From positions 1 to 39,657 of the forward strand of contig CAIKNE010000110.1 in NCBI GenBank assembly GCA_903828695.1: a DNA stretch of 39,657 nt, in the 5' to 3' direction. How positions within the stretch are numbered: position 1 is the stretch's first letter; the number at the start of each line of letters is the position of its first letter. The notes under the pieces are model-generated. The model was given only the letters and a program-made list of their open reading frames with translations, made no database searches and was not told where the DNA came from. The position numbers were made by a program, and so were the translations under genes. The DNA comes from an uncultured Burkholderiales bacterium (lineage in GTDB: Bacteria; Pseudomonadota; Gammaproteobacteria; Burkholderiales; Burkholderiaceae_C). Positions 10,855 to 18,172 of the stretch are shown piece by piece.

Positions 10855-12093
10855 ATGCTAAACCTCGATTTCCACCCCACTGGCCGTCATTTCCTTCAAA
10901 TTCCTGGGCCGTCCCCCGTACCCGAGCGTATTCTTCGCGCCATGAGTTTGCCAACCATCGATCACCGAGGCCCAGAGTTTGGTCATCTTGGCTTAAAAGT
11001 ACTCCAAGATATTCAAAAGATCTTTCAAACCACCCAACCCGTTGTCATCTACCCCGCGTCCGGTACTGGAGCCTGGGAGGCGGCACTTTGTAATGTGCTA
11101 AGTCCAGGAGATGAGGTGCTCATGTATGAGACGGGCCACTTTGCAGCGCTGTGGCACAAGATGGCATCTAAACTGGGTATCAAAACCCGCGTCATCTCCC
11201 TTGAAGGAACCACGGATGGGATTCCCAACGCTTGGAGACACGGCGTACAAGTTGACCTCATTGCCAAGCACCTCAAAGAGGATACGGGACACGCCATCAA
11301 GGCCGTATGCGTCGTGCACAACGAAACATCAACGGGTGTTACGAGTGATATTCACGCAGTCCGGCGCACCATTGACATGCTAAAACACCCCGCTCTTTTG
11401 ATGGTGGACACGATCTCTGGATTGGCTTGTGCCCAGTACAAACACGATGAATGGGGAGTGGATGTCTCCATCAGCGGCTCACAAAAGGGGTTGATGCTCC
11501 CACCCGGCATCAGCTTTAATGCAGTCTCCCCCAAAGCGCTTGAGGCCAGTAAAGTCGCAAAGCTTCCAAAAGCATTTTGGGCCTGGGACGAGATCATTGA
11601 GATGAATAAAACAGGCTACTGGCCCTACACCCCGAACACTCACCTGCTGTACGCACTGAGTGAGGCGTGTGACATGATCTTAGACCCCCATAGCCAAGGC
11701 ATAGAGGGCGCATTCAAGCGCCACCAAAGGAGTGCTGCTGGCGTGCGGGCTGCGGTGAACGCGTGGGGGCTTCCCATCCAGTGTGCAGATGAGGCGGTTT
11801 ACTCGCCCGTCTTGACTGGCGTAATACTGCCCAAAGAGTTTGATGCGGACGCGGTACGTAAGACAATTTACGAGCGATTTGACTGCTCACTTGGCACTGG
11901 ACTGGGCAAGATCAAAGGCAGAATGTTCCGAATAGGGCACCTCGGGGACACCAACGATTTGACCTTAATGGGCACCCTTGCAGGTTGTGAGATGGGACTT
12001 AAGGCCTGCGGCATTACTTTGAAATCCAGCGGCGTGCTAGCAGCGATGGATTATTTTTCTGCAAATCCTGTCCCCAAACCAACTCCAAAGTAA
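10855..12093 (+). CDS. Serine/alanine--glyoxylate aminotransferase (class V, SgaA/AGXT-like)
   Basis: A 412-residue pyridoxal-phosphate enzyme of aminotransferase class V that transfers an amino group from serine or alanine to glyoxylate, making glycine. The N-terminus has LQIPGPSPVPERILRAM and IDHRGPEFG, both typical of this family. The nucleotide-like cofactor pocket YPASGTGAWEAAL follows, then the aspartate in LLMVDTISGLA, and the cofactor lysine at about 211 in SGSQKGLMLPPG. The C-terminal domain has GKIKGRMFRIGHLGDTND. The start ATG at 10855 has no strong ribosome site. The upstream FAD-linked dehydrogenase could supply a 2-oxoacid such as glyoxylate. The choice between serine and alanine as donor cannot be made here. 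The transposon ends 33 bases downstream of its stop. Confidence 0.9.
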   Translation: MLNLDFHPTGRHFLQIPGPSPVPERILRAMSLPTIDHRGPEFGHLGLKVLQDIQKIFQTTQPVVIYPASGTGAWEAALCNVLSPGDEVLMYETGHFAALWHKMASKLGIKTRVISLEGTTDGIPNAWRHGVQVDLIAKHLKEDTGHAIKAVCVVHNETSTGVTSDIHAVRRTIDMLKHPALLMVDTISGLACAQYKHDEWGVDVSISGSQKGLMLPPGISFNAVSPKALEASKVAKLPKAFWAWDEIIEMNKTGYWPYTPNTHLLYALSEACDMILDPHSQGIEGAFKRHQRSAAGVRAAVNAWGLPIQCADEAVYSPVLTGVILPKEFDADAVRKTIYERFDCSLGTGLGKIKGRMFRIGHLGDTNDLTLMGTLAGCEMGLKACGITLKSSGVLAAMDYFSANPVPKPTPK

Positions 12094-12118
12094 ATAGCCC
12101 CCTCGGCTCAGGACGCTA

Positions 12119-12126
12119 AAAATTTC
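12119..12126. repeat. Left 8-bp target-site duplication
   Basis: AAAATTTC lies immediately outside the left inverted repeat. It is identical, in direct orientation, to 15221-15228. Eight bases is the usual duplication length for the ISL3 family. Confidence 0.95.
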
Positions 12127-12149
12127 GGGTATCCGTAATCGGTTGTTGA
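12127..12149 (+). repeat. Left terminal inverted repeat of the ISL3 element
   Basis: Twenty-three bases starting GGGTATCCGTAATCGG, an exact reverse complement of 15198-15220. Confidence 0.95.
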
Positions 12150-12201
12150 CTTGGACAGTTTTTCATTGTTTGGTTTGCTGTTCATAAAATGCATTTCGTT
12201 G

Positions 12202-12230
12202 TTGACAGCCAGCGTCAGTTTGTGTAGCAT
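12202..12230 (+). promoter_or_regulatory. Probable sigma-70 promoter of the passenger/transposase operon
   Basis: TTGACA (12202-12207), a 17-base spacer, then TAGCAT (12225-12230), 25 bases before the DUF4160 start. The -35 box is perfect and the spacing is optimal. It is the only strong promoter-like pair I see in the element, so it may serve all four genes. Confidence 0.65.
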
Positions 12231-12254
12231 TACTTCGTAATTCACTGTTTATTT

Positions 12255-12515
12255 ATGCCAACCATCAGCACTTTTTATGGCATCCTGATTCGGATGTACT
12301 TCAACGATCATGCCCCTGCACACTTTCATGTGCAGTATGCAGAATACAAGGCCACGGTTGATATCCAATTGCTATCTATCTCAAGTGGCGAGCTTCCTCG
12401 TTGAGCGCAAGAACTTGTTCTCGATTGGGCTGAACTGCATCAACAAGAGCTGCTAGAAGACTGGCGTCTATGCATGGAAAAACAGCAGCCAAAACCGATT
12501 GCTCCTTTAAAGTGA
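12255..12515 (+). pseudogene. DUF4160 protein, interrupted by an in-frame TGA
   Basis: The reading frame gives MPTISTFYGILIRMYFND, then HAPAHFHVQYAEYKATVDI, the clear signature of the DUF4160 family, normally about 80-90 residues. After ELPR a TGA at 12402-12404 (codon 50) interrupts it. The same frame continues with AQELVLDWAELHQQELLEDW, the expected C-terminal half of the family, and stops at 12513-12515 after 86 codons. A single substitution therefore separates this from a full gene. DUF4160 genes are often paired with DUF2442 genes, as here; the pair has been suspected of toxin-antitoxin-like behaviour, which is inference. A sequencing error cannot be excluded. Confidence 0.85.
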
Positions 12516-12523
12516 GGTCGAAT

Positions 12524-12778
12524 ATGGAATGGGACGTTATAGAAGTTAAGGCTGTTGCACCATTGGCCCTTAGGGTTCAATTTGCAGACGGCACCGTGGG
12601 CAAGGTTCAGTTTGAAACAAGTCACTTGACAGGCGTATTTGCAGCCTTAAAAGACCCCGTTATTTTTCAGCAAGCGCACATCGATGACGGCGCCGTTACA
12701 TGGCCTGGAGACTTGGATCTAGCGCCTGATGCCATGTATCAAGCGATCAAGTCTCAAGGTGAATGGGTATTGCGTTGA
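12524..12778 (+). CDS. DUF2442 domain protein
   Basis: An intact 84-residue protein of the DUF2442 family. The core is VKAVAPLALRVQFADGTVGKVQFE, followed by LKDPVIFQQAHIDDGAVTWPGDLDLAPDAMY, where the W-P-G-D-L-D-L-AP motif is diagnostic. The start at 12524 is preceded by GAGG with good spacing, overlapping the end of the DUF4160 frame. An earlier ATG at 12470 lies inside DUF4160 and adds residues foreign to the family. DUF2442 proteins are small partners of DUF4160 proteins; neither has a firm biochemical role. It is separated from the next gene by a single base, so translation is probably coupled. Confidence 0.88.
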   Translation: MEWDVIEVKAVAPLALRVQFADGTVGKVQFETSHLTGVFAALKDPVIFQQAHIDDGAVTWPGDLDLAPDAMYQAIKSQGEWVLR

Positions 12779-12779
12779 G

Positions 12780-13808
12780 ATGCCGATACCCCAAATCAAC
12801 GAATCTTCTGTTTGCCGTCCAAAGGACTTGCTAACAGCTTTTTCAAAATCGCATGACGGGCTTTGGAAATTTATGGACGAGGCTAGATCTAGCTGGAAAT
12901 AGCAACATGATGTTCCAGCTTGGTCATTCTCACCGCAGATATGTGATGCCGGTGCTTTTTTCAAATTTACAAGGTTAGAAGACAAGCCATTACTTGTCGC
13001 AGCTCACTTCCTTTATTCATGGCGGGCGACACAGGGCATTTACAGATTAGATACTGATCTATTCAAAGCCCTTCAGGGAACAGAACTTAGCGGTGCGGTT
13101 CCATGCGAAGTACTTAAAAAAATTCCGGAATGGTGTCTGTACGTTGAAACCCCAATGATTCCATATGTTTCAGCTTCAGGCTCTGCAGAGATAGCGCACG
13201 GATTTTTTGTGTTGTTAGAGCCTGATCGTGAGACCGGAGAACCATGGGTGTCGTTTTTCATTGATGGCAAGTACGGGTATGAGATGGCCACAATGAAACT
13301 TATCGATGAGAAGACTATTGATGAATGCATTTTGGAAACGATAAAAGTCGTTTCGCAACGAAACCCAAATCACTATGGGCTTGACTCTCACAACGCGGCG
13401 AAGAGTATGGCAGACCTGCTTTCCCCATTTTTAAACATTGTCTTATTCATCTGTTCGCAAGCAAGTGAGATTGGTTGCGGTGAAAAAAAACCTTCATTGC
13501 CAGCAGAGAAAAGAACCAAGCGGGGAATTCGTGTTTTCCCGCCTGATGCTCCCATGAGTTGGGATGTTGGATTTCGAATTGGTGCCGCATTAAGGTTGGC
13601 TCAGTCATCACCAGATCAAAAAGGAGAACTTGGTGGCTCTGGTGTTAGACCACACATTCGGCGTGCGCACTGGCATGGGTTCTGGCACGGTCCTCGTGAA
13701 GGTACGCGGTCTTTCAAACTTAAATGGATTCCTCCTATTCCAGTTAAGGTGGACGACTTAGATGCAATACCTGCTGCAATCAGAAAAGTAGAGGCATTAG
13801 TCGTCTAG
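12780..13808 (+). pseudogene. AcrVA2-like (anti-CRISPR/Cas12a inhibitor family) gene with an in-frame TAG
   Basis: A 342-codon frame, close to the 322 residues of Moraxella bovoculi AcrVA2. Segments I recognise from that family are SWRATQGIYRLDTDLF (AcrVA2 has AWRNTLGIYQLDEEI), IPEWCLYVET near residues 116-124 (LPDWCVYVD), and near the C-terminus RPHIRRAHWHGFWHG at 290-304 (RPHIRRGHWHGYWQG), then a basic strand FKLKWIPP. AcrVA2 inhibits type V-A immunity by lowering Cas12a production through its mRNA. A TAG at 12900-12902 (codon 41) breaks the frame. The next start codon is an ATG at 13155 (codon 126), so only a 217-residue C-terminal part could be made without readthrough. Assignment is by remembered similarity, not a search. 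Confidence 0.78.
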
Positions 13809-13810
13809 AA

Positions 13811-15190
13811 ATGCCTACCAATATTTTGAATCTTTCGCGGCTCAATGTTGAACGCGTGGAAGATGACGAACACGATTACCACATCTATGCGAATTCAGTC
13901 GTCAATCCAACTACGTGCCCCAGTTGCCAAAGCGCTCGTCTAGTTGGTTTTGGGCGCAACCAGCAGTTAATCAAAGATTTACCAATGCACAGCAAGCGTG
14001 TTGGCATTTATTTCGATACCCGTCGATACCGTTGCAACGAGTGCAATCGTACCTTTCTTGAGCAACATCCAGACTTTCATCCTGACCGTGCCATGACTTT
14101 GCGGTTAGTCAATTGGATTGGGCAGCAAAGCTTGCACCGTACCTTTTCCAGTTTGGCAGAAGAAACGGGCGTGGTTGAAGGAACTATTCGCAACATCTTT
14201 CGAAATCATGTCAATGAGCTTGAGGCTCAATTTCGGTTTGAGGCACCTAAGTGGATGGGCATTGATGAAATTCACCTGATCCGCCCTCGATGCGTCATCA
14301 GCAACATCCAGAACAACACCATCGTGCACATGCTGGTGAACCGTAACAAAGACACGGTGATCAATTACTTGTCCAACTTGGCTGGACGCCATGAAGTTCA
14401 GTACGTGGCCATGGACATGTGGGCACCTTATCGTGACGCTGTTCAAGCCGTGATGCCCAACGCCAAAATTGTGATCGACAAGTTCCATGTCGTCAGAATG
14501 GCCAACGATGCCCTAGAGCGCGTCAGAAAGGGCTTGCGTGAGCAATTGACGACGAAGCAACGCAGAGGCCTTATGCATGACCGATTCGTGCTTTTGAAGC
14601 GCGAGCGTGATTTGAATGACCGTGAGCGCCTATTGCTGGATGGTTGGACGGCCAACTACCCCGACTTGGGCGTGGCTTACAGGCTCAAAGAAGACTTCTA
14701 CGGCATCTACGAGAAGGCAGATTCACCTCAAGAAGCGATGAAGGCATACGAGGCTTGGAGTCGGGCGGTGGCCCCACAAGTCAGGGATGCCTATTCTGAT
14801 CTGATCCGCGCTTGGTCAAACTGGCAGTCTTGGATCATCAACTACTTCGAGCATCCAGTCACCAATGCCTACACGGAGAGTTTGAACAACTTAATTCGGG
14901 TCATGAATCGCCTTGGCCGTGGGTACAGTTTTGAAGCGCTGCGAGCCAAGATTTTGTTCACGGAAGGGGCGCATCGAAAAACCAGAGCAAGGCCCAAGTT
15001 TGAACGTAGACGTGAGCCCGCTGACATGGGTTATGGCGTACCGAAGAACGGTGTGGGTTTTTACTTGCCGCCTGGACACATGGGCAAGATGGTTGATTTT
15101 GGCCACCAACATGAAACGCAAGGTGCTGAAATCAACTTCGGTGCTCACATACCAACACTAATTGAGATGATCGAGTCAGGTCGGCTTTAG
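13811..15190 (+). CDS. tnpA: ISL3-family transposase
   Basis: An intact 459-residue DDE transposase. The N-terminal zinc ribbon has CPSC (36-39) and CNEC (75-78), typical of ISL3/IS204/IS1001 transposases. A helix-turn-helix region follows (SLAEETGVVEGTIRNIF). The catalytic residues are probably Asp152 in MGIDEIHL, Asp202 in VAMDMWAPY and Glu356 in NAYTESLNNLIR. Its ATG lies two bases after the stop of the AcrVA2-like gene and has only a weak, distant GAGG upstream, so expression may rely on translational coupling. All motifs are present and the ends of the element are intact, so it could be active. Confidence 0.95.
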   Translation: MPTNILNLSRLNVERVEDDEHDYHIYANSVVNPTTCPSCQSARLVGFGRNQQLIKDLPMHSKRVGIYFDTRRYRCNECNRTFLEQHPDFHPDRAMTLRLVNWIGQQSLHRTFSSLAEETGVVEGTIRNIFRNHVNELEAQFRFEAPKWMGIDEIHLIRPRCVISNIQNNTIVHMLVNRNKDTVINYLSNLAGRHEVQYVAMDMWAPYRDAVQAVMPNAKIVIDKFHVVRMANDALERVRKGLREQLTTKQRRGLMHDRFVLLKRERDLNDRERLLLDGWTANYPDLGVAYRLKEDFYGIYEKADSPQEAMKAYEAWSRAVAPQVRDAYSDLIRAWSNWQSWIINYFEHPVTNAYTESLNNLIRVMNRLGRGYSFEALRAKILFTEGAHRKTRARPKFERRREPADMGYGVPKNGVGFYLPPGHMGKMVDFGHQHETQGAEINFGAHIPTLIEMIESGRL

Positions 15191-15197
15191 GCACTGA

Positions 15198-15220
15198 TCA
15201 ACAACCGATTACGGATACCC
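15198..15220 (-). repeat. Right terminal inverted repeat of the ISL3 element
   Basis: Exact reverse complement of 12127-12149, ending GGATACCC at the element boundary. Confidence 0.95.
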
Positions 15221-15228
15221 AAAATTTC
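15221..15228. repeat. Right 8-bp target-site duplication
   Basis: AAAATTTC, identical to 12119-12126. Confidence 0.95.
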
Positions 15229-15239
15229 ATCGCCTTGTT

Positions 15240-16367
15240 TTAGTACTTGGAGGCGCTAGAACCAGTCTTTGGATCGAGCGCGGCGAGTGGTTTTCTCGCC
15301 CACACACGGTCTAAGGCGTTGGCAAGCCAAGTCACCAGTGGTCTCTCCAAATATTTGTAGACCAACAACGAGAAGACAAAACTGATCGACCAACCCAGTG
15401 CAATAAAAATCCAAGCACTGAGCTCACTTTGTAACGCATATTTGTACCAAACTCCACTTAAAACAATAAGTACCGCAAAGTGATTTAAAAAGAGCGCATA
15501 AGAAGAATCGCTCAAAAGGTGTAGGTACTTTGAGCGGGCTTTAAGGCTACCCGATGGGTTTAGCTTTGTCGCCAGATACAAACTAAGCGCTGTTGCAATT
15601 GCAATCGCGACACGCGCTCTGGGCGCGTAAATAAAAGCACCTACAGCCATCGCCAAGGTAAACACAAAAACCTTTAAGGCACGCGGCTGTTGTGTGGACC
15701 AAAAGGCAAGCATTCCCAAGCCGTAAGCACCGTAGAAGTAAACCGCATAATCATCCCAATCCGGGTTCAGGTTAAAGAACCACAAGGACGCAGTGCTGAG
15801 TAAGCTGATGAGCGTCAAATGCCCTGCAAGGTAATACTTACCTCGCAGAGTGTTTGCAAGCCAAATCAAAAAGACGGTGGCCATAAAGAGTTGCAAATCA
15901 ATTGCCACGTACCAAACCCCAACCGTTAACGCATCGATTTGGAGTACGTTTTGCACCATCAATAGATGTCCAAAGAATTTAACCCAACTTGGCTCGGCGG
16001 GCAGCCAACTCTCTAGGCCTAACGCGGCCGCAGCGCCCTCTATGTGACTGCGCATGAGCCAGGCCGCAAGCACCGTGATCACCAGCGCAATGAAGTACGA
16101 GGGCAATAATCTAAAGTACCTGCGCACGATTAGGGGCAGTGGAGATATCTTTTCTTGCCTTGCAAAGGACCTTGCAACCAAATAGCCAGAGGTGACCAAG
16201 AAGACCTGCACAACCATACGCGCATCTTCAAAGAGAACGTTGATAAGACCGCTCCAAGTCATACTTAAAACGTCAGCCATGGGGCTGTAAGCTGCGAAGT
16301 GGTGCAACACAATCAGTTGAGCGGCAATCGCTTTGAATGCGTCGACCGTTAGGGAACGTGTTCTCAA
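15240..16367 (-). CDS. Acyltransferase 3 family membrane protein (OafA/YrhL-like)
   Basis: A 375-residue integral membrane acyltransferase of the type that O-acylates cell-surface sugars. The N-terminus shows LTVDAFKAIAAQLIVLHHFAAY with the essential His pair, then VQVFLVTSGYLVARSFARQ and VRRYFRLLPSYFIALV, all hallmarks of the family. About ten hydrophobic segments follow, with the late SYALFLNHFAVLI and KYLERPLVTW motifs. The start is a TTG at 16367 with GAGGGG a few bases upstream. It converges on the aminotransferase gene across the transposon. The acceptor sugar is unknown, and no surface-polysaccharide genes are adjacent. Confidence 0.9.
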   Translation of the reverse strand: MRTRSLTVDAFKAIAAQLIVLHHFAAYSPMADVLSMTWSGLINVLFEDARMVVQVFLVTSGYLVARSFARQEKISPLPLIVRRYFRLLPSYFIALVITVLAAWLMRSHIEGAAAALGLESWLPAEPSWVKFFGHLLMVQNVLQIDALTVGVWYVAIDLQLFMATVFLIWLANTLRGKYYLAGHLTLISLLSTASLWFFNLNPDWDDYAVYFYGAYGLGMLAFWSTQQPRALKVFVFTLAMAVGAFIYAPRARVAIAIATALSLYLATKLNPSGSLKARSKYLHLLSDSSYALFLNHFAVLIVLSGVWYKYALQSELSAWIFIALGWSISFVFSLLVYKYLERPLVTWLANALDRVWARKPLAALDPKTGSSASKY

Positions 16368-16567: not shown

Positions 16568-17380
16568 TTGCAAAGTACCTCCCAACCGCCCCTTGCTTGG
16601 ATACAAGCGCACGAGCCACTGCCCAACCCGTCTAGTGCGTGGGGTCAGGGTAGCCGTGCTCCGGGCCTGCTCGCAGCCGGCGAGGACTTGAGCACTGAGC
16701 GACTTAGGGAAGCTTACAGCAAAGGCATTTTCCCCTGGTATAGCGCCTCCCAACCCGTGTTGTGGTGGAGCACAGATCCCAGAATGGTCCTGAAGGTGGA
16801 TCAATTTCGTATTCATCATTCGTTTAAGAAAACCTTATCTGCTTTTATCAAGAATCCGAGTTGCGAAATTCGCATGGATTCGGCCTTCTCAAAAGTCATT
16901 CAAAATTGCGCCCTCAGGCCACCTAAAATTCAAAGCGCAAGCCGCCTTGAACATTCACAGCCATCAAACCAAGGGCACCCAGAACCCGAAGAGCTTTCAG
17001 GGACTTGGATACTTCCGCAGATTCAAACCACTTACTGCGCTGCCAACAGGGAGGGTTTTGCCCACAGCGTGGAGACCTGGATTGACGGCGTTTTGGTAGG
17101 AGGACTTTACTGCGTATCGCTTGGTAAAGCGGTTTACGGGGAGTCGATGTTTAGCCTTCAAAAGGACACATCGAAGATTGCCCTAGCAGCGCTGGTTGCA
17201 TTTTGCAAAACTCACCAGATTGTAATGATAGATTGCCAGCAAAACACCAGTCATTTAGCCTCTTTAGGCGCGCGTGAGATGCCACGATCTGAATTTATAG
17301 AGTCGATCAAGATCACACAAACACAAGTGTCCCCGACTTGGACATTTAAACCCGAATTTTGGAGGCAATTATCGGTTTAA
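16568..17380 (+). CDS. aat: Leucyl/phenylalanyl-tRNA--protein transferase
   Basis: Transfers Leu or Phe from tRNA to proteins with N-terminal Arg or Lys, marking them for ClpS/ClpAP. The family signature is complete: APGLLAAGEDLSTERLREAYSKGIFPWY, WWSTDPRMVL, then TWILPQIQTTYCAANREGFAHSVETW and VYGESMFSLQKDTSKIAL. There is an extra polar insert of about 25 residues near 115-140 before TWI, longer than usual. The only upstream start is a TTG at 16568, after an in-frame stop at 16550. The cytosolic partner bpt follows 63 bases later on the same strand. Confidence 0.93.
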   Translation: MQSTSQPPLAWIQAHEPLPNPSSAWGQGSRAPGLLAAGEDLSTERLREAYSKGIFPWYSASQPVLWWSTDPRMVLKVDQFRIHHSFKKTLSAFIKNPSCEIRMDSAFSKVIQNCALRPPKIQSASRLEHSQPSNQGHPEPEELSGTWILPQIQTTYCAANREGFAHSVETWIDGVLVGGLYCVSLGKAVYGESMFSLQKDTSKIALAALVAFCKTHQIVMIDCQQNTSHLASLGAREMPRSEFIESIKITQTQVSPTWTFKPEFWRQLSV

Positions 17381-17443
17381 ATTATTGTTGTAAATTTTTT
17401 TCTACATCTGAAAAAACTGAATGATTTGAATTAAACTTTTTCT

Positions 17444-18172
17444 GTGACTGATCTCAAGGACCTTCCCCTCCAAGCTTTGCAGTTTTATGCAACAGCCCCT
17501 TATCCCTGCAGCTATTTAGAGGATCGTCAGGCGCGCTCGCAAGTTGCAACGCCAAGCCACCTGATCCAAAGCGACGCCTACTCTGAGCTCGTCACCCAAG
17601 GCTTCAGGCGCAGTGGACTCTTCACCTACCGTCCCTACTGCGATGGCTGCAAGGCCTGTGTCCCGCTCAGAGTACTCGTGAACGAATTTGCACCCAACCG
17701 CAGTCAAAGAAGGGCCTACAAGGCTAACCAAAGCCTTCAGACCCGTATCACCACACTGGGATTCAAAGAGGAGCACTACGAGCTCTATCTTCGCTACCAA
17801 ATGGCCAGACACAGTGGGGGCGGAATGGACCAAGACAGCGTGGACCAGTACTCACAGTTTTTGCTCCAAAGCAGGGTCAACTCCAGACTGGTGGAGTTCA
17901 GGACACCGGGAACCCAGACCAACCTGGGAGAGCTCAAAATGGTTGCGATCCTAGATCTGCTAAACGACGGCATCTCTGCTGTCTACACTTTTTACGAGCC
18001 ACAGGCGTCCACCAGTTACGGCGCGTACAGTGTGATGTGGCAAATCGAGCAAGCCAAACGCCTGGGACTCTCCCACGTTTATTTAGGCTACTGGATCGAG
18101 CAAAGCGAGAAAATGAACTACAAATCGCTCTATAAACCCCATCAAATGTTGATCGACGGAAAATGGACGTGA
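17444..18172 (+). CDS. bpt: Aspartate/glutamate leucyltransferase (bacterial Ate1-type N-end rule enzyme)
   Basis: A 242-residue cytosolic enzyme attaching Leu to proteins that begin with Asp or Glu. Visible features are [15 protein letters not shown] near the N-terminus, the cysteine cluster [15 protein letters not shown] (Cys66, 69, 72), QRRAYKAN, and the GNAT-like C-terminal half with [18 protein letters not shown] and LGYWI. The length fits the family. The start is GTG at 17444. It is paired with aat, so the two make a compact N-degron module, as in many Burkholderiales. Confidence 0.93.

Follow-up and report, generated by a model that had tools for sequence, protein, structure and literature searches.

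For AcrVA2 of Moraxella (PDB 7ci1, 7ci2), the reported mode of action is recognition of the N-terminal peptide of nascent Cas12a, which sets off the degradation of the Cas12a mRNA by a machinery that a 2026 review calls unknown (PMC13131331). According to a meeting report, AcrVA2 also lowers tagged Cas9 and Cas12f (PMC12908700), so that a peptide tag seems to suffice. On the basis of homology to AcrVA2, a gene of a Shewanella phage has been named a putative anti-CRISPR (PMC10846135) and genes of huge phages possible anti-CRISPRs (PMC7162821). FinQ, which was sequenced in 1989 according to a reference in PMC8744291, is described as a fertility inhibitor of IncI1 plasmids that ends tra transcription at several sites in a Rho-independent manner (PMC8744291), and an earlier survey of its plasmid homologues exists (PMC5696584). 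The literature searched yielded no paper linking FinQ with AcrVA2 or with anti-CRISPRs, and none combining the topics of anti-CRISPR, fertility inhibition and nascent peptides; bioRxiv lay outside the scope of this search, so the relation may be known elsewhere.

Two other kinds of described systems concern the surroundings of the gene discussed here. Among ISL3 elements, ISPst2 is reported to have ends of the form GGGTATCCG..., 8-bp direct repeats and two passenger genes besides the transposase (PMC6305408), and ISPpu12a, of the same family, to carry a CZC module (PMC4447125). The toxin-antitoxin pair DhiTA (DUF4160/DUF2442, toxin gene first) has been reported to be functional in Dickeya and E. 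coli (PMC8198452). The window, that is, the whole stretch analysed in this work, is a contig of 39,657 bases from an uncultured Burkholderiales bacterium, and it holds relatives of these systems in a single transposon.

The AcrVA2-like frame and the element that carries it

The frame (12780-13808) consists of 343 codons and contains stops only at codons 41 and 343. Since each of the other five frames carries 9 to 21 stops between positions 12903 and 13805, the openness of this stretch is not due to chance, and its translation (P0001, 301 aa) was used as the query for the homology searches. A first-pass annotation of the window had pointed to a resemblance to AcrVA2, had noticed the stop at codon 41 and had placed the gene between the perfect ends of an ISL3 transposon, before the transposase; all of these statements were borne out. 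Among the PDB chains, P0001 matches AcrVA2 (7ci1, 7ci2) in two collinear stretches with an E value of 2.5e-19 (72.7 bits), the following hit having an E value of only 0.065. The three segments singled out by that annotation are present in the frame (GIYRLD at 13035-13052, EWCLYV at 13128-13145 and RPHIRRAHWHGFWHG at 13647-13691), and their AcrVA2 counterparts in the PDB alignment (GIYQLD, DWCVYV and RPHIRRGHWHGYWQG) are similar, not identical. P0001 also matches PHROG 6160, a group of unknown function (E 1e-54), and no significant model in Pfam, PADLOC or NCBIfam (one chance hit, E 0.21).

The structure prediction proposed in the same annotation leads to the same protein. An AlphaFold model of P0001, built from 76 aligned family members and without the first 41 codons, reached a mean pLDDT of 85.9 and a pTM of 0.84, and in a structure search all its matches below E 0.05 were to AcrVA2 chains (E 7e-15 to 6e-14, TM 0.60-0.62), the next hit being at 0.057. 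As the sequence match and the match of the predicted fold agree, the membership of the window protein in the AcrVA2 sequence and fold family, over most of the part that is kept, can be regarded as settled.

The gene lies within an ISL3 element that spans positions 12127-15220 (Table 1). Both features by which the ISL3 family was judged are present, the transposase scoring well above the curated cut-off of 180 bits and the inverted ends being accompanied by an 8-bp target duplication. All the genes are on one strand with gaps of a few bases, in the order DUF4160, DUF2442, AcrVA2-like gene and transposase, and the transposase starts two bases past the stop codon of the AcrVA2-like gene. The joined flanks of the element were searched in 84 genomes of the genus, four of which, the host's own included, matched at all; in one relative (G349) the two flanks adjoin at 86% identity in a locus devoid of the element, with 33 bases, the target octamer among them, absent around the join.

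Table 1. Coordinates of the ISL3 element and its genes in the window
Feature	Position	Strand	Remarks
Target site duplication AAAATTTC, left copy	12119..12126	.	Sequence comparison
Left terminal inverted repeat, GGGTATCCGTAATCGGTTGTTGA	12127..12149	+	23/23 bases same as right end
Promoter-like site (10/12), inside left end	12202..12230	+	Weak evidence
DUF4160 (DhiT-type toxin) gene	12255..12515	+	One in-frame stop at 12402-12404
DUF2442 (DhiA-type antitoxin) gene, open	12524..12778	+	PF10387, E 6e-12
FinQ/AcrVA2-family gene	12780..13808	+	In-frame stop at 12900-12902 (codon 41), otherwise open
ISL3-family transposase, open, 459 aa	13811..15190	+	NF033550, 280.8 bits; PF01610, E 7e-63
Right terminal inverted repeat	15198..15220	-	23/23 bases same as left end
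Target site duplication AAAATTTC, right copy	15221..15228	.	Sequence comparison

ISL3 elements that combine passenger genes with such ends were already known, ISPst2 and ISPpu12 among them; those elements carry a permease with a regulator, or metal resistance, whereas this one carries a toxin-antitoxin pair and a FinQ/AcrVA2-family gene. The pair shows the domain combination of DhiTA with the toxin gene in first position. Unlike in DhiTA, the toxin frame contains a stop (PF13711 is matched at E 8e-12 before it and, collinearly but under the cut-off, at E 0.0025 after it), and the DUF2442 protein, for which ATG 12470 would be a longer alternative start, remains far below the cut-off of the DhiA equivalog model (E 3e-4, 21.1 bits versus 200). 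The promoter-like site is the only one found in 12050-15300, versus 4.1 expected in shuffled sequences.

A family including both AcrVA2 and FinQ

A tblastn search with P0001 matched 553 of 72,556 plasmid records, 516 of which are typed as conjugative, mainly from Escherichia (309) and Salmonella (146). FinQ is the annotation of 32 of the 40 plasmid rows sampled at even steps, but of only 9 of the 30 best-scoring ones, the nearest rows being proteins without a name from Pectobacterium, Polaromonas, Thioflavicoccus and others. The alignments with the FinQ rows listed cover 81-87% of the window protein, although at an identity of about 26-32%, and the FinQ of E. coli itself matches AcrVA2 in the PDB with an E value of 5.3e-12. 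While FinQ adjoins transfer genes in the record examined, the window gene belongs to a transposon.

Relatives were also retrieved from 83 of 50,697 phage records, including large Erwinia and Klebsiella phages as well as Moraxella, Pasteurella and Lactobacillus phages, from GTDB genomes (89, with 78 loci kept) and from viral contigs (108, with 80 loci kept), the latter by an alignment-based scan, a single-protein scan having given none. In the host's own family, 11 of 299 genomes gave a match. An open frame of 230-480 aa is present in 145 of the 158 relatives that were fetched.

A tree of 149 rows was constructed by a quick method that left 58 of its 146 inner branches open and that includes some long branches; homologues from Moraxella phages and genomes stand in for the PDB AcrVA2, which is absent from it. 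Moraxella, Acinetobacter, Shewanella and viral sequences form one clade (support 100), and FinQ sequences another (support 100), placed far from it. The window row belongs to neither; it is grouped, with weak support, with rows from Variovorax, Burkholderia, Chelatococcus and viruses, no starred group setting its own place, and its top identity to the other 148 rows is 41%. Taken together, the sequence comparisons and the predicted fold show that one protein family holds both AcrVA2 and FinQ, the window gene being a decayed member of it. This suggests a widespread family used by mobile elements against their competitors. If the family is indeed one, what is learned about FinQ sheds light on AcrVA2 and vice versa: FinQ could be tested for silencing in response to a nascent peptide, and the many relatives whose targets are unknown would become accessible as well.

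The relatives also bear on the idea that the window gene might still yield an active product. The first in-frame start after the inner stop, ATG 13155, leaves 217 aa that would retain the conserved C-terminal region, and the FinQ annotated on one IncI plasmid, with 259 aa, is likewise short. The latter, however, reflects a start called too late, as its open frame runs upstream to 364 codons; moreover, the 217-aa protein would be without the conserved segments GIYRLD and EWCLYV, and its length falls below the range observed in nearly all fetched relatives. That such a protein is made and active appears, on this evidence, extremely improbable. As for the IncI plasmid (L036:3734-4828), the part of the frame that extends upstream of the annotated FinQ start shows similarity to the family.

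A different question is whether the target of the family is Cas12a; the first-pass annotation had proposed, as one of two possibilities, that such a gene helps an element to avoid CRISPR targeting. The draft genome of the host, 97.95% complete, gave no match to Cas12a and none to Cas1, the Cas1 control being positive in 9 of 14 genomes. The Cas12a search was extended to the source genomes of 38 among the 78 genome loci (L129, a 39th, was left out), and Moraxella lacunata alone gave a match, 37 of the 38 giving none; the Moraxella result implies that the search works. Even considering that draft genomes can miss genes, this pattern argues against a common targeting of Cas12a across the family. 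A true anti-Cas12a protein, letting the transposon or its replicon escape CRISPR-Cas12a, would agree with the AcrVA2 homology in sequence and fold. Nevertheless, in the quick tree the supported clade that holds the Moraxella, Acinetobacter and Shewanella homologues does not include the window protein, the family is far wider than that clade, neither Cas12a nor Cas1 was matched in the host draft, and the reported targets of FinQ, another member of the family, are conjugation genes (PMC8744291). We consequently rejected an anti-Cas12a function as the main reading and judge it very improbable; the alternative mentioned in the same annotation, i.e., another role in hosts devoid of Cas12a, fits better. 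Of that earlier interpretation, the homology and the carriage were supported and the CRISPR evasion was not, while the relation to FinQ and the cargo type of the element group (see below) were absent from it. We would also warn against naming AcrVA2-like genes anti-CRISPR on the basis of homology alone.

A same-strand open frame lies close upstream in 105 of the 145 relatives; 90 of these frames were scanned (15 were dropped, partly as near-copies), and a fixed upstream partner was rejected, no family occurring in more than three of the 90. In the Pasteurella phage CFP3 (L046:2387-2812), a regulator similar to Aca2/YdiL precedes the AcrVA2-like gene in an acr-aca layout; neighbours of this type are rare, with one more among the scanned frames. 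On the Thioflavicoccus plasmid pTHIMO01 (L040:2436-5912), the family gene follows closely behind the annotated PglZ and BrxL genes (BREX).

Cargo, decay and movement of the related elements

The cargo of related elements was analysed in 36 stretches picked by transposase similarity (the window, 12 loci from viral or plasmid records and 23 genome stretches), 35 of which contain the transposase at E 1e-20. Both ends and a perfect 8-bp duplication were recognised in 17, corresponding to 16 elements as L249 repeats L221; the independent elements are fewer, because one and the same cargo occurs at two sites in L212 and L222, and L215 resembles L216. From the left end up to the transposase, 65 open frames were counted in all, of which 40 were compared with Pfam and 10 of these also with PADLOC. 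Conflict or addiction genes over curated cut-offs occur in 10 of the 16 delimited elements, a proportion to be read without a background rate: a nucleotidyltransferase with HepT or HEPN in L217, L219, L246, L247 and L254, AbiEii in L220, Fic in L256, restriction genes in L221 and L259 and, as the tenth element, the toxin-antitoxin pair of the window. L212 and L222 have a Fic match just under the cut-off, and the remaining four elements embed no known family (L214), YopX (L215 and L216) or, in the relic L264, no frame of 50 aa. Not counted here are L258 (DUF5397 and a Cas2-type match under the cut-off) and L260 (metal transporters), which have matching ends and no perfect duplication, L213 and L253, where ends without a duplication were found, and 15 more stretches with no ends or, in L248, with a contig-edge artefact.

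Two of the delimited elements carry restriction systems, each with a perfect target duplication: a type IIG restriction enzyme-methyltransferase in L221 (1341-6437; PADLOC E 3e-238) and a BsuBI/PstI-type restriction-modification pair in L259 (7394-11404). The passages on ISL3 elements that we consulted in the literature describe no cargo of these kinds, neither toxin-antitoxin nor restriction nor anti-CRISPR genes.

These comparisons also concern the possibility that the protein limits the production of the element's own transposase, an idea to which the position of the gene, right before the transposase and in the same orientation, lends itself. However, the other elements of the group hold unrelated genes in that place, and none of the other 158 genome and viral loci has an ISL3 transposase beside the AcrVA2-like gene (within flanks of at most 6 kb and 4 kb). 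A self-regulatory role thus seems improbable, and a recurrent pairing of the two genes was likewise rejected. What the window does illustrate is that a FinQ/AcrVA2-family gene can ride a transposon together with toxin-antitoxin genes.

The cargo of the window element looks decayed, with one in-frame stop each in the DUF4160 and the AcrVA2-like gene, while the DUF2442 gene and the transposase are open; the AcrVA2-like gene in this window is probably dead. Another species of the genus (G326) harbors, at a different site (L022), a 912-bp copy of the element that is bordered on both sides by its own 8-bp duplication, GAAATTTT, and whose two main kept parts are 91% and 95% identical to the window element. 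The deletion between these parts, which also cut the transposase, removed the AcrVA2-like gene except for its first and last bases. Because the internally deleted copy keeps these remnants, it is strongly indicated that the gene moved with the element, which would very probably have contained it already when the two copies diverged. Related relics that lack the gene were found at C66 and C134 of the host's own genome and in G346; these relics (L265, L264 and L267) are 81-85% identical where they align, and the deletions of L265 and L267 span the place of the gene.

On the whole, we are inclined to regard the locus as a dead FinQ/AcrVA2-family silencer of a rival's mRNA, which, together with a DhiTA-type pair, occupies the space from the left end to the transposase in an ISL3 transposon, an explanation that we consider fairly probable. 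A simpler view is that the gene was picked up by chance, never had a selected function in the element and is decaying as a passenger. The stops in two of the three cargo genes, the loss of the gene in L022 and the deletions in L265 and L267 are in agreement with this view; on the other hand, the gene was carried by two copies at different sites in two species, and the leaning of the group's cargo toward conflict genes, for which no background rate is at hand, is not predicted by chance pick-up. We consider this view unlikely, though not to be dismissed lightly, as an account of how the gene came to be there; of the copy as it now stands, it gives the same picture as the explanation in terms of a dead silencer. 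The gene copy itself is ordinary wreckage, and the interest lies in the family link and in the cargo pattern.

The target duplications of the window and of L022 (AAAATTTC and GAAATTTT) are mutual reverse complements, and those of L256 and L217 are CAAATTTC and GGAATTTC, respectively. Together they hint at a target preference; a preference for AT-rich targets has been reported for ISL3 elements (PMC10886379).

Conserved residues and a possible mode of action

Two alignments of the family were available, one (A1) of 19 rows obtained by tblastn without selection for any motif and the other (A2) of loci fetched by the motif H-RR-H-H. Since the invariance of that motif in A2 is partly due to construction, we relied on A1, in which four positions are invariant (H251, R253, G263 and W275) and three more (R254, H256 and H258) reach 95%. 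The conserved residues cluster in the C-terminal part, and this distribution may be taken to fit a shared effector region joined to a variable recognition part. The pocket residues that PMC10846135 names for peptide docking seem, on an assumed residue numbering, not to be conserved in A1.

From these data we infer that the intact protein might have been a factor in conflicts between mobile elements, silencing the mRNA of a rival. We consider the mechanism reported for AcrVA2 to be the most likely one: a single target protein would be recognised on the ribosome by the variable body, which binds its N-terminal peptide while still nascent, and arrest and the loss of the mRNA would be due to the conserved C-terminal region (H-x-RR-x-H-x-H ... 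W). The termination by FinQ at several sites of the F tra operon might be a transcriptional view of this event, and only the Moraxella branch might have Cas12a as its target. Since mRNA is commonly lost when its translation stops, one mechanism could give the phenotypes of both AcrVA2 and FinQ, although the reported Rho-independence of FinQ does not by itself point to translation.

A broader generalisation can be put forward only tentatively, and we hold it to be rather doubtful as a whole: AcrVA2 and FinQ would be two branches of a single bacterial family whose members silence co-translationally, each with a specificity for the initial residues of one protein of a rival, and which is found in phages, in conjugative plasmids and in one transposon at least, and the ISL3 subgroup would represent a small carrier of conflict modules (toxin-antitoxin, restriction and silencers).

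Lastly, outside the element, the window contains at 16568-18172 two adjoining frames that may encode N-end-rule enzymes, as they resemble leucyl/phenylalanyl-tRNA and arginyl-tRNA protein transferases.
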